Assembly: GCA_018970465.1 (NCBI GenBank)
Contig: JAGWWI010000004.1
Span: 1-45,927 of the forward strand
DNA from: Patescibacteria group bacterium
Lineage (GTDB): Bacteria > Patescibacteriota > Minisyncoccia > Phycocordibacterales > Phycocordibacteraceae
Length of the DNA: 45,927 nt
Direction: 5' to 3'
The position numbers and the translations under genes are program-made. The notes under the pieces are model-generated. The model saw nothing but the letters and a program-made list of their open reading frames with translations, had not been told where the DNA came from and did not search any database. Of the stretch, positions 6,808 through 11,164 are shown in pieces (position 1 is the first letter of the stretch; each line of letters begins with the position of its first letter).

Positions 6808-8085
6808 ATGTACGCGCTCGTCGAACGCATCGTCGCGCTCCTCAAGAAGGTCGTGCCGGACGCATGGGTGCGCCCCCTGCTGCCTCGCTACCATCGGACA
6901 CTCGCATTCGCATCTGCGCTCGCCTACGGCTTCCCCGCCCGCTCGCTCACGGTCATCGGCGTCACCGGCACCAAGGGCAAGTCCTCGGTCGCGGATATGC
7001 TCTTCACCGTCCTCCGGCATGCGAGATACCCTACCGCCGTCGCCGGCACGATCCGCTTCGCGATCAACGACCAGTCGGAGCCGAACCTCTTCAAGATGAC
7101 GATGCCAGGCCGCGGCTTCATCCAGCACTTCCTCGCGCGGGCGAAGCGGGCGGGCTGTCGTTACGCGGTCGTCGAGATCACGAGCGAGAGCACGCTGAAC
7201 TTCCGCCACCGCCACCTCGACCTCGACGCGCTCGTGTTCACCAACTTGCAGCGGGAGCACATCGAGCGCCACGGCTCGTTCGAGAAGTACGCGGCGGCGA
7301 AGCTCGAGATCGGCAGAGAGCTCGCGCGCTCCCCGAAGCGCCCCCGCGCGATCATCCCGAACGGCGACGATCCGGCCGCGGCGCCCTACCTCGCGCTCCC
7401 GGTCGAAGAGAAGCGGCCGTTCTCCTACGCCGAGGCGACGGCTATCGCCCTCGGCCCCGGGACCGCGGCGTTCACCTACCACGGCACGCGCTTCTCGCTC
7501 CAGCTCCCGGGCTCCTTCAGCATCATGAACTCTCTCGCCGTCATCAAGGCGGCGGAGTTCCTCGGCGTCCCGCTCCCGGCGATCGCCGACGCGCTCGCGA
7601 AGCTCGAGCGCATCCCGGGCCGCACCGAGCGCATCGAGGCGGGCCAGGATTTCACGGCCGTCGTCGACTACGCGCACACGCCCGACTCCCTCGAGGCGCT
7701 CTACGCCGCCTACCCGGTGCGCAAGGTCTGCGTCCTCGGGAACACGGGTGGCGGGCGCGACACCTGGAAGCGGCCCTTGATGGGCAAGATCGCTGACGCC
7801 GCCTGCGACCTCGTCATCCTCACGAACGAGGATCCGTACGACGAAGACCCGCGCGCGATCGTCGACGCGATGGCAGCGGGAATGGTGCGGCAGCCGGAGA
7901 TCGTGATGGACCGGCGCGAAGCGATCCGCAGGGCGCTCGCGGCCGCGCGGCCGGGCGACGCCGTCCTTGTGACCGGCAAAGGCACCGACCCCTACATCAT
8001 GGGCGCCGCCGGGGCGAAGGAGCTGTGGAGCGATGCACAGGTGGTCCGCGACGAGCTCAAGCGGCTGCTATCATCGAAGCCATGA
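6808..8085 (+). CDS. Mur ligase family protein, MurE-like
   Basis: IGVTGTKGKSSVADML P-loop, VVEITSEST, VFTNLQREHIERHGSFEKYAAAK, VDYAHTPDSLEALY, TNEDPYDEDPR. Confidence 0.85.
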   Translation: MYALVERIVALLKKVVPDAWVRPLLPRYHRTLAFASALAYGFPARSLTVIGVTGTKGKSSVADMLFTVLRHARYPTAVAGTIRFAINDQSEPNLFKMTMPGRGFIQHFLARAKRAGCRYAVVEITSESTLNFRHRHLDLDALVFTNLQREHIERHGSFEKYAAAKLEIGRELARSPKRPRAIIPNGDDPAAAPYLALPVEEKRPFSYAEATAIALGPGTAAFTYHGTRFSLQLPGSFSIMNSLAVIKAAEFLGVPLPAIADALAKLERIPGRTERIEAGQDFTAVVDYAHTPDSLEALYAAYPVRKVCVLGNTGGGRDTWKRPLMGKIADAACDLVILTNEDPYDEDPRAIVDAMAAGMVRQPEIVMDRREAIRRALAAARPGDAVLVTGKGTDPYIMGAAGAKELWSDAQVVRDELKRLLSSKP

Positions 8086-9134
8086 ATGAAGCGTGGTTTT
8101 TCGTCGGCCTCTTCGCGTTCATCTTCCTCCTCTGGATCGCGATCGGCGGCCCTACCCGCGGCGTCTCCTTCGGGCTCCCGGCGGTGACCGCGACGAGCGT
8201 CTCCGCTACGGCGGAGGGGTCGACGACGGGCTCCTACTTCTCGCTCCCGCAGGCGCCCTTCGCGATCGGGCAGACCGAAATCCACCTGCCGGGGTCTTCG
8301 AGCGGCTCGTCGTACGGCTATAGCTCCGGCAGCGGCTCTGGCTACGGCTACGGCTCGACGAACCCATTGATCACAGTGCCGGGCGTCACCTTCCCCGCGA
8401 CCTCGCCCTACCGCGGCCGCGTCTCGCTCGCGGGCTCGGTCGGGGACGCGAGCTCGAGCGACCCGGGCGAGGAGTACGTCGAGATCTACGCTGCCGACGA
8501 CGGCGGAGCGCCGATCGACATAACGGGCTGGGAGCTCCTCTCGGGCGCGACCTACAAGTACGCGTACATCCCCCAGGGCACCGCGATCCCCGCATCCGGG
8601 ATCGTGAATCCGACAAGCGATATTTACCTCCGGCCGGGCGACACGGCGATCATCACCTCGGGTGAGTCGCCCGTGGGCGGCTCCTTCCGCGAGAACGAGT
8701 GCACGGGCTACTTCGGGAGCACCCAGAGCTTCACCCCCTCCCTCTCGCAGTCGTGCCCCTCTGCCAACACCGAGATGACGACCTACTACGGCAAGCCATA
8801 TATCCACGACCCGGACTGCATCAACTACACGCGCTCCCTGGGCACCTGCCGGATGCCGACCGCTGCGGGCGAGGCGAACCTGAACCTCACCTGCCAGGAC
8901 TTCCTCGACACGTACCTCAACTACTCCGGCTGCCTCGCGGCGCACCAGGGCGACGCGGGCTTCGTCCTCCCCGACTGGCGCATCTACCTCGGCCGGAAGC
9001 CCCTCTCCGAACTCCCCGCCTTCGCGAGCGTGAACGAAACGCGCAAGCAAGGGCCCCTCTGGCGCGCGAGCTACGACGTCGTCGAGCTCCTCGACCGCGA
9101 GGGCCGCATCGTCGACGCGTTCACGTACGACTAG
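8082..9134 (+). CDS. Membrane-anchored protein with lamin-tail-domain-like region
   Basis: MNEAWFFVGLFAFIFLLWIAIGG TM helix; EEYVEIYAADDGGAPIDITGWELLSG...LRPGDTAIITSG resembles LTD folds; Ser/Gly/Tyr-rich linker. Confidence 0.6.
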   Translation: MNEAWFFVGLFAFIFLLWIAIGGPTRGVSFGLPAVTATSVSATAEGSTTGSYFSLPQAPFAIGQTEIHLPGSSSGSSYGYSSGSGSGYGYGSTNPLITVPGVTFPATSPYRGRVSLAGSVGDASSSDPGEEYVEIYAADDGGAPIDITGWELLSGATYKYAYIPQGTAIPASGIVNPTSDIYLRPGDTAIITSGESPVGGSFRENECTGYFGSTQSFTPSLSQSCPSANTEMTTYYGKPYIHDPDCINYTRSLGTCRMPTAAGEANLNLTCQDFLDTYLNYSGCLAAHQGDAGFVLPDWRIYLGRKPLSELPAFASVNETRKQGPLWRASYDVVELLDREGRIVDAFTYD

Positions 9135-9958
9135 TTCTTATAGGAAGCTATCGCCATCCGAAGAAGCTCTCGCTTCTCGAGACTTTTCTTCCATCGACTG
9201 TTTGTACGTTTACCGTTTATACAAACGCCTGGAGAGAAATTTATTTCTATCTCAAAGCGTTCGAGATTCTGTTTTCCGATAATCGCTATTTCATTTGGCT
9301 CCACGATCCGCGCTTCAACCCCAAAGTCCGCTAGGAGTGCCTTTACGATCCTGAGAATAGTAAGATCTTTTTGGTATCCGCGCACGCGTCTACGTTTAGA
9401 CGGCATAAAATCCATGCAGCCTTCGTCATCGAAAAAAGCCCTCAAGAACTCTCGCTTAAGCTTTTTCTGTAGCGTGACAATTTCTCCCAGTAACATACGC
9501 GCACGATCATGCAGATGCTCAGAAAGAGCGACGTTGAAATAGGCGATTCTGCCCACTCCTGTTTTTGTATTCCTGTATCGACTTGGCGCAAATGCATATA
9601 CGCTTTGCATTAGTATTTCTACCCGATTGCGGAGCGCCTCGCTGCGATTATTGTAGGCACATACTCTTCGCATAATTTCGCCGTCGAAGAGCAGGTGTCC
9701 GAGTAGCAGTACATTTTGTGGCGTCCACTTAGTTACAGGAATGAATTCGCGAGCACTTTTTCCTTTTCTCGCGAGTGCAAATTGGCGAATGCGTTGCCCT
9801 GCGGCTCTACGCACCACGGCAAGTTTTTCTGGGGCCAAGGGTAAATCTTGGATATGAAAATATACGGTGGTCTTTGAACGACCCGTGGCTCGCACGATCT
9901 CAGGAAGGGTATGCCCTTGCCGCCGCAAAGCGATGCATCGTTCTTTCAGCATATTCAT
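9131..9958 (-). CDS. HTH + double-motif LAGLIDADG protein (free-standing homing endonuclease or domesticated derivative)
   Basis: N-terminal HTH (HTLPEIVRATGRSKTTVYFHI) followed by LAGLIDADG-like motifs VLLLGHLLFDGEIM and EFLRAFFDDEGCMDF; visibly AT-richer than flanks. Confidence 0.75.
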   Translation of the reverse strand: MNMLKERCIALRRQGHTLPEIVRATGRSKTTVYFHIQDLPLAPEKLAVVRRAAGQRIRQFALARKGKSAREFIPVTKWTPQNVLLLGHLLFDGEIMRRVCAYNNRSEALRNRVEILMQSVYAFAPSRYRNTKTGVGRIAYFNVALSEHLHDRARMLLGEIVTLQKKLKREFLRAFFDDEGCMDFMPSKRRRVRGYQKDLTILRIVKALLADFGVEARIVEPNEIAIIGKQNLERFEIEINFSPGVCINGKRTNSRWKKSLEKRELLRMAIASYKN

Positions 9959-9959
9959 G

Positions 9960-10032
9960 TCCGCCCCCCGGGGAACGATCCCGGAACCTACCGCTTAAAA
10001 GGCGGTTGCTCTACCGATTGAGCTAGAGGCGG
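9960..10032 (-). tRNA. tRNA-Lys (anticodon TTT) with atypical T-loop (ATCGTTC)
   Basis: Minus strand: CCGCCTC TA GCTC AATCGGTA GAGC A ACCGC CTTTTAA GCGGT AGGTT CCGGG ATCGTTC CCCGG GGGGCGG A; all four stems pair. Confidence 0.8.
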
Positions 10033-10040
10033 GTGCCTTT

Positions 10041-10046
10041 ATTATA
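10041..10046 (-). promoter_or_regulatory. -10 box (TATAAT) of the tRNA-Lys gene
   Basis: Complement of attata, 8 nt upstream of the tRNA 5' end on the minus strand. Confidence 0.5.
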
Positions 10047-10054
10047 CACGAGCT

Positions 10055-10079
10055 GTTGGTTCGAATCCAACTGGGCGGA
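10055..10079 (+). other. Orphan tRNA 3' half (T-arm plus acceptor 3' strand)
   Basis: GTTGG-TTCGAAT-CCAAC-TGGGCGG-A with canonical T-loop; no matching D-arm or anticodon arm upstream on the + strand. Confidence 0.55.
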
Positions 10080-10153
10080 CTCGCATCGTCGAGCCTGTTG
10101 CGCTAGTTACCGTATAGAGGCCGTACCTTTCGGTCATATATACGGAGGACAAC

Positions 10154-11164
10154 ATGAAGGTAGTCACTATCGGCGGCGGTACAGGCCAGCACGCGGTCCT
10201 TTCGGCGCTCCGGCTCATTCAGGAGCGGTTCGGGCTCGCAATAACCGCCATTCCGACCGCGATGGACAGCGGCGGCTCGAGCGGCATGCTCCGGATCGAG
10301 CATCGCATCATTTCGCCCGGCGATATCGGGCAGTGCATACTGGCGCTCTCGGAGGACCAGGCGCGCGATGCGTGGCTTCTTGCCGGGCAGCGCTTCGGCG
10401 AGGGACGCGTCAACGGCGATACGCTCCGCAACTATCTCGTCCTCGCCGCCCTGAAGCACCACTGCGGGGATGGCGAGCGCGCGATGCGCGCTATCCGCGA
10501 GACGCTCCACCTCGCGGGGGAGATCGCGCCGGTCACGTTCGACGAGACGCACGTGCACGCGCGACTCGCCGACGGTACCGTTCTCACCCAAGAGCACGAC
10601 ATCTCGACAGCGGACCTCGTCGGCGCGGGCGGTATCGAGGAACTCTGGCTTGACCCGCTGCCGAGGGCGAACCCGAGCGCGCTCCGCGCGATAGCGGAAG
10701 CGGATGCAGTCATCGTCTGCCCAGGCACGCTCGCGTGCTCGGTGATACCCAACTTTCTCGTACCCAGCATCGTCGCAAGACTCCGCGAAGCAGGCGGGCG
10801 CAAGGCATACGTCGTGAACCTCATGAACGAGCGCCGTCGCGTGCCGGCCACATGGTCGGTGCGCGACTACGTCGCCTATCTGGAGCAGTACCTCGGCCCG
10901 CGCTTCTTCGATACGGTCGTCTGCAACACACAGCCGGTCACCGCGGAGCAATCCCGCGTATACGAAGAAGAGCGCGCAGCCGTACCGCTCCTCCACGACA
11001 TGCGCGACGACGGCCGCTCGGTCTACGCCGTCCCGCTCCTCTCTGCCGTTCCGGTCGTCACTGATCCGAACGACGCGATCGGCTCCCTGCGCGCCTCCGT
11101 CCGCCACGACCCAGCCAAGCTCGCGCATGTATTGTCGCAAGTCCTGGCGGGAGACCCGGCGTGA
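10154..11164 (+). CDS. YvcK/CofD-like gluconeogenesis factor family protein
   Basis: MKVVTIGGGTGQHAVLSALR...DSGGSSGMLR...PPGDIGQC-like segment, GPGTLACSVIPNFLV-like segment, YVVNLMNE. Confidence 0.85.
   Translation: MKVVTIGGGTGQHAVLSALRLIQERFGLAITAIPTAMDSGGSSGMLRIEHRIISPGDIGQCILALSEDQARDAWLLAGQRFGEGRVNGDTLRNYLVLAALKHHCGDGERAMRAIRETLHLAGEIAPVTFDETHVHARLADGTVLTQEHDISTADLVGAGGIEELWLDPLPRANPSALRAIAEADAVIVCPGTLACSVIPNFLVPSIVARLREAGGRKAYVVNLMNERRRVPATWSVRDYVAYLEQYLGPRFFDTVVCNTQPVTAEQSRVYEEERAAVPLLHDMRDDGRSVYAVPLLSAVPVVTDPNDAIGSLRASVRHDPAKLAHVLSQVLAGDPA

Follow-up and report, generated by a model that had tools for sequence, protein, structure and literature searches.

The window, a stretch of 45,927 nucleotides from a patescibacterial genome, raises the question of how a gene of homing-endonuclease type came to be packed between the stop codon of one neighbor and the 3' end of another, a tRNA-Lys gene. 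The HTH-LAGLIDADG open reading frame (ORF) occupies positions 9131..9958 of the minus strand and encodes 275 amino acids. Directly upstream on the same strand is a tRNA-Lys(UUU) gene (9959..10032, discriminator at 9960), referred to here as tRNA' as its sequence departs from that of tRNA-Lys in genomes lacking the ORF. Only C74 (9959) lies between the discriminator and the ATG at 9958, which are two bases apart. On the other side, a conserved LTD-domain gene (8085..9134, plus strand; reading frame 8025–9134 from a GTG, homology over 8082–9131) runs convergently and serves as a marker of the locus. The two genes share the tetranucleotide CTAG (9131..9134, both strands), in which the minus-strand TAG is 9133–9131 and the plus-strand TAG is 9132–9134, and this overlap is seen again in most of the genus members that carry the ORF. 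The GC content is ~47% in the ORF versus 65–70% in the flanks. This layout and the AT-richness, both pointed out in a first-pass annotation, were confirmed in the sequence. The packing is not a matter of chance since every one of the 30 homologues whose upstream DNA is readable shows it too. The genome (G000; 799 kb, 37 contigs, 98.7% complete) contains no close second copy of the ORF. A pattern match on contig C27 that suggested a second tRNA-Lys was ruled out, as ARAGORN predicts no tRNA there.

A Pfam search of the protein returned LAGLIDADG_3 (PF14528, E = 3.8e-9, above the cut-off), sub-threshold HTH models over residues 5–38 and, beyond these, only a weak TatA match. The AlphaFold2 model (pLDDT = 91.8) presents the HTH, at about residues 3–36, followed by two LAGLIDADG halves, in agreement with the HTH and two LAGLIDADG-like motifs noted at first reading. 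Each motif contains an acidic residue, D92 in the first and E179 in the second (FFDDEG), that is invariant in 27 sequences and is assigned a catalytic role by its position in the motif. When the model was searched against the PDB, the best compact matches were structures of I-DmoI (E about 1e-6), and WhiA was also matched. A protein of homing-endonuclease type, as first proposed, is thus supported by the I-DmoI-like model and the invariant, putatively catalytic acids. The dN/dS ratio in the two closest pairs is 0.06–0.07, which supports purifying selection on the ORF. Several other origins were considered and set aside. An intron- or intein-encoded gene does not agree with an Rfam analysis of positions 8600–10600, which found the tRNA only, nor with an ORF that has its own start and stop and no fused extein. 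Pfam shows no GIY-YIG domain of the SegB type in the protein. A phage origin was rejected because no relative of the ORF was found in the viral contigs searched (viral_contigs) and the protein has no PHROG match, and a defense system because it has no PADLOC match.

If the gene is linked to the tRNA by more than accident, its homologues should be found beside tRNA genes as well, a search that the first-pass annotation had proposed. Among 148 related genomes, orthologues were found in 16 genus-mates with ~54–64% identity, all on the same strand as, and directly 3' of, tRNA-Lys(UUU), with a junction that mostly reads '...AC|ATG'. A scan of GTDB genomes provided a further 13 loci with upstream DNA, some from bins named Nomurabacteria and Nealsonbacteria, and 13/13 follow tRNA-Lys(UUU). 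Taken together, tRNA-Lys(UUU) is directly 5' of the gene in 30/30 homologues with readable upstream DNA (17 in the genus and 13 beyond it), and the ATG usually begins at the base next to the tRNA 3' end; one exception among the 13 is L183, where the ORF is ~110 nt from the tRNA. At L182, the adjoining gene is dnaJ-like instead of the usual murE/LTD – holA/polA region. The relatives that bear names are Candidatus Kaiserbacteria and other Patescibacteria, and the sole match without a tRNA (L186) is archaeal, a remote relative with 24% identity. Judging by its span of several genera with 41–64% identity, the association between ORF and tRNA is an old one, contrary to the recent insertion that was first suggested. 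As a separate observation, unrelated genes in genomes without the ORF have their ATG exactly at, or a few bases from, the tRNA-Lys 3' end (L059, L069 and L071; nearby in L065 and L073). A start codon fused to the end of a tRNA is therefore not unique to the endonuclease gene.

The tRNA-Lys(UUU) regions of nearly all of the 93 genus genomes were extracted and scored uniformly. With few exceptions, a genome has a single tRNA-Lys(UUU), nearly always adjoining the LTD gene, and the ORF is present in 17 of 90 genomes and absent from 73. Where the ORF is missing, genus-mates carry a single tRNA-Lys at this locus, and it usually points the other way. The tRNA is convergent with the LTD gene in 17/17 carriers compared to 9/70 genomes without the ORF (Fisher 6e-12), where it is mostly co-directional, and phylogenetically independent pairs give the same contrast at about 9.4 to 0. 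The sister genomes G063 (empty) and G068 (filled) are illustrative. Their sequences agree as far as the LTD stop and resume agreement just past the tRNA; in G068, ~975 nt comprising the ORF, tRNA' and a leader stand where the resident tRNA was. Several genomes without the ORF (G013, G028, G040, G084 and G050; L080, L081, L082, L137 and L144) have a convergent tRNA-Lys with the consensus anticodon stem, from which it is clear that the orientation of the tRNA can change without the element.

What the element does to the resident tRNA may be read from the sequence just beyond tRNA'. Positions 10055..10079 of the plus strand, GTTGGTTCGAATCCAACTGGGCGGA, correspond to the T-arm, acceptor 3' strand and discriminator of a tRNA-Lys encoded on the opposite strand to tRNA', and 23 of these 25 positions are identical to an allele present in genomes without the ORF (14–16 in shuffles). 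Similar scars are present at the same place in G001 (22/25), G018 (22/25) and G081 (21/25), where shuffled controls overall give 13–17; clear scars were thus observed in four of the 17 genus carriers, the window included. The scars of G018 and the window are collinear with the resident tRNA 3' half of G032 and G023, both without the ORF. The junction is located in the T-loop, where the resident sequence gives way to a conserved CGAACC of the element (GGTTCG in reverse complement). At L182, a tRNA-Lys 3' half (20/25) is found downstream of the ORF instead. From their alignment to alleles without the ORF, the scars indicate that the element took the place of a resident tRNA-Lys rather than simply inserting next to it. 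A simple insertion at the 3' end of the resident tRNA, the model of the first-pass annotation, is rejected since the adjoining tRNA has neither the sequence nor the orientation of resident alleles, and remnants of a second tRNA are present; tRNA' is best regarded as part of the invading unit, with the 3' half of the replaced copy left behind. Both the replacement of the resident tRNA and the lateral movement of the element are well supported by these comparisons.

The distribution of the ORF was compared to a host tree of 89 genomes built by a quick search from MurE, PolA, HolA and RuvA, genes which are linked to the locus. On this tree, the presence of the ORF requires 15 changes, at least 11 of which are forced by well-supported branches, and this is no fewer than with shuffled labels. 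The ORF tree conflicts with the host tree (AU p = 5e-4, 9e-5 and 2e-4). The earlier reasoning was that an ORF found at this locus in relatives, inherited vertically and with no empty site, would speak against insertion. Relatives do carry the ORF at the same locus, but empty sites are many and the gene and host trees disagree; patchy presence and spread to the same site are consistent with lateral movement of a free-standing LAGLIDADG homing endonuclease. ORF distance also correlates with host distance (r = 0.76); thus the pattern probably reflects both vertical descent with many losses and recurrent lateral gains. One fully supported clade contains G000 (a carrier), G031 (convergent tRNA, no ORF) and G023 (co-directional tRNA, consensus stem), which fits a cycle of gain and loss. 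The G031 tRNA is closest to that of another genome without the ORF, so loss of the ORF in G031 can be considered only likely. The copy in G018 (L048, 7481–8340) is split by a stop into two frames while tRNA' and the clear scar are kept, and is apparently a degenerating element.

The same data bear on whether the protein could be a host-beneficial, domesticated regulator of the tRNA-Lys locus, co-transcribed with its own tRNA. WhiA (DUF199), a conserved regulator, also joins an HTH to a LAGLIDADG fold and is among the structural matches; in WhiA, the LAGLIDADG region comes first, the HTH comes last and the catalytic residues are lost (PMC3781837). The protein of the window has the reverse domain order and has kept its acids, which are invariant among its homologues, and for these reasons it does not belong to WhiA as the first-pass annotation had allowed. 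The HTH domain, the low dN/dS and the long-lasting association across genera would all suit a regulator, and a conserved GAACC motif upstream of tRNA' could be an operator. However, the gene is absent from 73 of 90 genus genomes, scattered where present and laterally mobile, and domestication is considered improbable.

The GAACC motif is part of a promoter-like sequence, GAACC-N-TATAAT, at 10041..10062 of the minus strand (TATAAT 10046–10041, GAACC 10062–10058), which the scar overlaps. In its general form, GAACC-N-TA(n)T, the motif was found upstream of tRNA' in 21 of 30 carrier loci compared to 3 of 73 loci without the ORF (shuffle mean 0.6/30). The anticodon stem of the tRNA has the genus consensus GCTCC in 51/72 genomes without the ORF versus 1/17 carriers (Fisher 9e-7; independent pairs 7.5 to 0.5, median p 0.02). 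When the full length of the tRNA is compared, 16.9 of 71 positions differ between carriers and the closest host relative without the ORF, while pairs without the ORF at similar host identity differ at 8.0–8.9 of 71 (p = 1.7e-7 for the carrier contrast). The alterations concentrate in the anticodon and T stems, and 17/17 carriers depart from the consensus A:T at the 7:66 pair. Stem pairing is largely kept by compensatory changes and the anticodon loop is kept.

Two features of the tRNA-Lys region were observed in passing. Unusual T-loops (ATCGTTC, ATCGTAA and ATCGTGG versus TTCRANY) are present in the window (9975–9985), in the tRNA-Lys of at least 12 genomes without the ORF and in a tRNA-Ile (L032), and look as though the 54–58 pair had been swapped from T-A to A-T. 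A two-hairpin leader is located ~80 nt upstream of tRNA-Lys at L054, L055, L063, L065, L067, L069, L075, L079 and others. Its first six bases match the tRNA 5' acceptor strand and co-vary with it (GCGCCC, CCGCCC, GCTCCC) in both tRNA orientations, and the leader could pair with the tRNA 3' acceptor strand.

Are the changes in tRNA' selected, or are they by-products? An ordinary free-standing homing endonuclease beside tRNA-Lys might leave tRNA differences behind through error-prone repair of breaks, recombination between tRNA alleles or co-conversion of foreign alleles, with no selected rescue or resistance. The tRNA' sequences follow neither the ORF nor the host phylogeny. There is no overall correlation between tRNA' distance and ORF distance (Mantel p 0.14), and strict co-inheritance of the two as one block is therefore globally unsupported; even so, G000 and G051, with a host identity of 64%, have tRNA' sequences that match at all but 2 of 71 aligned positions. 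Non-consensus anticodon stems, found in 16/17 carriers, are also present in 21/72 genomes without the ORF, and free-standing tRNA-linked homing enzymes are known from phages (PMC13096335). Against this reading stand the size of the differences, the preserved anticodon loop and mostly preserved stem pairing, and the change of the 7:66 pair in every carrier; the loss of the sole tRNA-Lys(UUU) without a functional replacement would also be expected to be lethal. On balance, an ordinary endonuclease is considered unlikely.

An RNA-level system may also be envisioned in which the protein attacks tRNA-Lys(UUU) itself, in the manner of an anticodon nuclease or toxin, and tRNA' is the immune version. 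The tRNA is a known target of such an enzyme (PrrC), and the concentration of alterations in the anticodon and T stems is in keeping with this proposal. A LAGLIDADG fold joined to an HTH indicates a DNA substrate, however, and the replacement of a tRNA gene is a DNA-level event; together with the lack of a PADLOC match, these observations make an RNA target very improbable.

The evidence in hand is a fixed linkage, a single-copy tRNA, patchiness, tree conflict, scars, an altered tRNA', purifying selection and an endonuclease fold. With these in mind, the promoter, tRNA' and the HTH-LAGLIDADG ORF are rather probably one free-standing, intron-less homing element aimed at the single tRNA-Lys(UUU) gene and equipped with an altered rescue tRNA. 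Transcription from the promoter of tRNA' would yield a tRNA-mRNA precursor with the ORF in its 3' portion. Processing of the tRNA 3' end would then leave a near-leaderless mRNA that begins with (C)AUG, an outcome that the gene arrangement supports. The protein would cut the ordinary tRNA-Lys gene of an element-free genome, and repair from an element-bearing copy, with homology supplied by the LTD flank and by the leftover 3' half or downstream flank, would swap the cut tRNA for the element, which would mostly be oriented the other way. The cell would survive because the element supplies its own working tRNA-Lys, in which compensatory changes would keep function and block cutting; the tRNA would be the rescue gene of a home-and-rescue scheme. 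Cutting, the target sequence, the resistance of tRNA', processing and leaderless translation are steps that we infer. Hosts are often only 65–80% identical in protein, and homologous repair between present-day species is therefore limited.

Weak matches in the search for orthologues led to a second family (class 2), which combines an HTH with a single LYWGEG motif. Only profile comparison links it to the first (class 1): the two are related across the HTH and the first half of the LAGLIDADG region (HHalign probability 98.7, E = 3e-16). The catalytic part of class 2 has no Pfam match. Class 2 was found in 101 of 380 sampled Patescibacteria genomes with up to eight copies each. Three are in the genome of the window, among them C21:3028–3645 beside tRNA-Val and C2:16322–16897 beside tRNA-Tyr. 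Seeds were chosen by sequence similarity and not by tRNA proximity. Among the 70 best-scoring loci, which were those checked (listed loci L187–L216 and L220–L259), 61 have a tRNA gene directly downstream on the same strand that starts −45 to +55 nt from the ORF end. The tRNAs include many isoacceptors, most often Ile(UAU), Trp, Arg(CCU) and Lys(CUU). A 10-nt overlap recurs, and several class 2 genes thus appear to use tRNA positions 8–10 (TAG, U8A9G10) as their stop. Displaced tRNA halves upstream of class 2 genes were not found as a trend, and the two best matches resemble neighboring tRNAs. Class 2 is apparently an undescribed and widespread tRNA-linked protein family in Patescibacteria. More tentatively, the two classes may be members of a phylum-wide class of intron-less tRNA-gene homing elements and serve as natural home-and-rescue drives that act on essential tRNAs, with one type replacing tRNA-Lys(UUU) and carrying a cut-resistant rescue, and the LYWGEG sister type abutting tRNA 5' ends. 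If true, this would account for why the stems of certain tRNA genes change so quickly.

Invasion of an essential gene by a mobile intron or intein is possible since splicing restores the gene. The unit described here appears to solve the problem of an essential target without splicing by supplying a working, altered copy of a single-copy tRNA. If confirmed, it would provide a natural precedent for engineered home-and-rescue drives and a selective explanation for how quickly a tRNA can be rewritten by compensatory changes, and nuclease pressure as a driver of tRNA sequence change would become directly testable.

Integrative elements insert at tRNA genes and leave a partial copy of the tRNA 3' end beside the working tRNA. 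A partial 3' copy beside a working tRNA is also found at the window locus; however, the unit has no integrase, the replacement extends to the whole tRNA and usually reverses its orientation, and the scar is a displaced 3' half and not an att repeat. I-DmoI and other archaeal intron-encoded LAGLIDADG enzymes, the best compact structural matches, have two motifs per chain as the window protein does, but they are encoded in rRNA introns and have neither an HTH nor a tRNA cargo.

The Seg and Mob enzymes are likewise products of free-standing homing endonuclease genes (intronless homing), but are phage GIY-YIG or HNH enzymes, whereas the element of the window is LAGLIDADG and bacterial. SegB of phages T4 and T6 is inserted between tRNA genes, its homologues are enriched near tRNA genes, and the reported target in T4 is a tRNA intergenic region (PMC2988022, PMC13096335). 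That association is one of location within 1 kb with no isotype preference, in contrast to the fixed junction with one tRNA found here, and no altered rescue tRNA is described in these papers. Closer in host are I-ShaI and other LAGLIDADG enzymes of CPR rRNA introns, which include patchily distributed LAGLIDADG_3 proteins with N-terminal extensions (PMC11270868). These share the superfamily, the bacterial group and the patchy distribution with the window element, but are encoded in self-splicing rRNA insertions and, for the most part, contain only one motif, while the window gene is free-standing, encodes two motifs and an HTH, and is tied to tRNA-Lys.

A homing element with a rescue tRNA is described in none of the papers found by searching open-licence PMC text, and the nuclease-plus-rescue arrangement appears to be known so far mainly from engineered gene drives. 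In home-and-rescue and cleave-and-rescue drives, a nuclease directed against an essential gene is linked to an altered, functional copy of that gene (PMC7968924, PMC7951863). At the present locus, an altered tRNA with an intact fold adjoins the endonuclease ORF and the resident copy has been replaced. The engineered drives are synthetic Cas9 constructs; the patescibacterial unit is natural and tRNA-based, and its nuclease would act by a cut that we infer.
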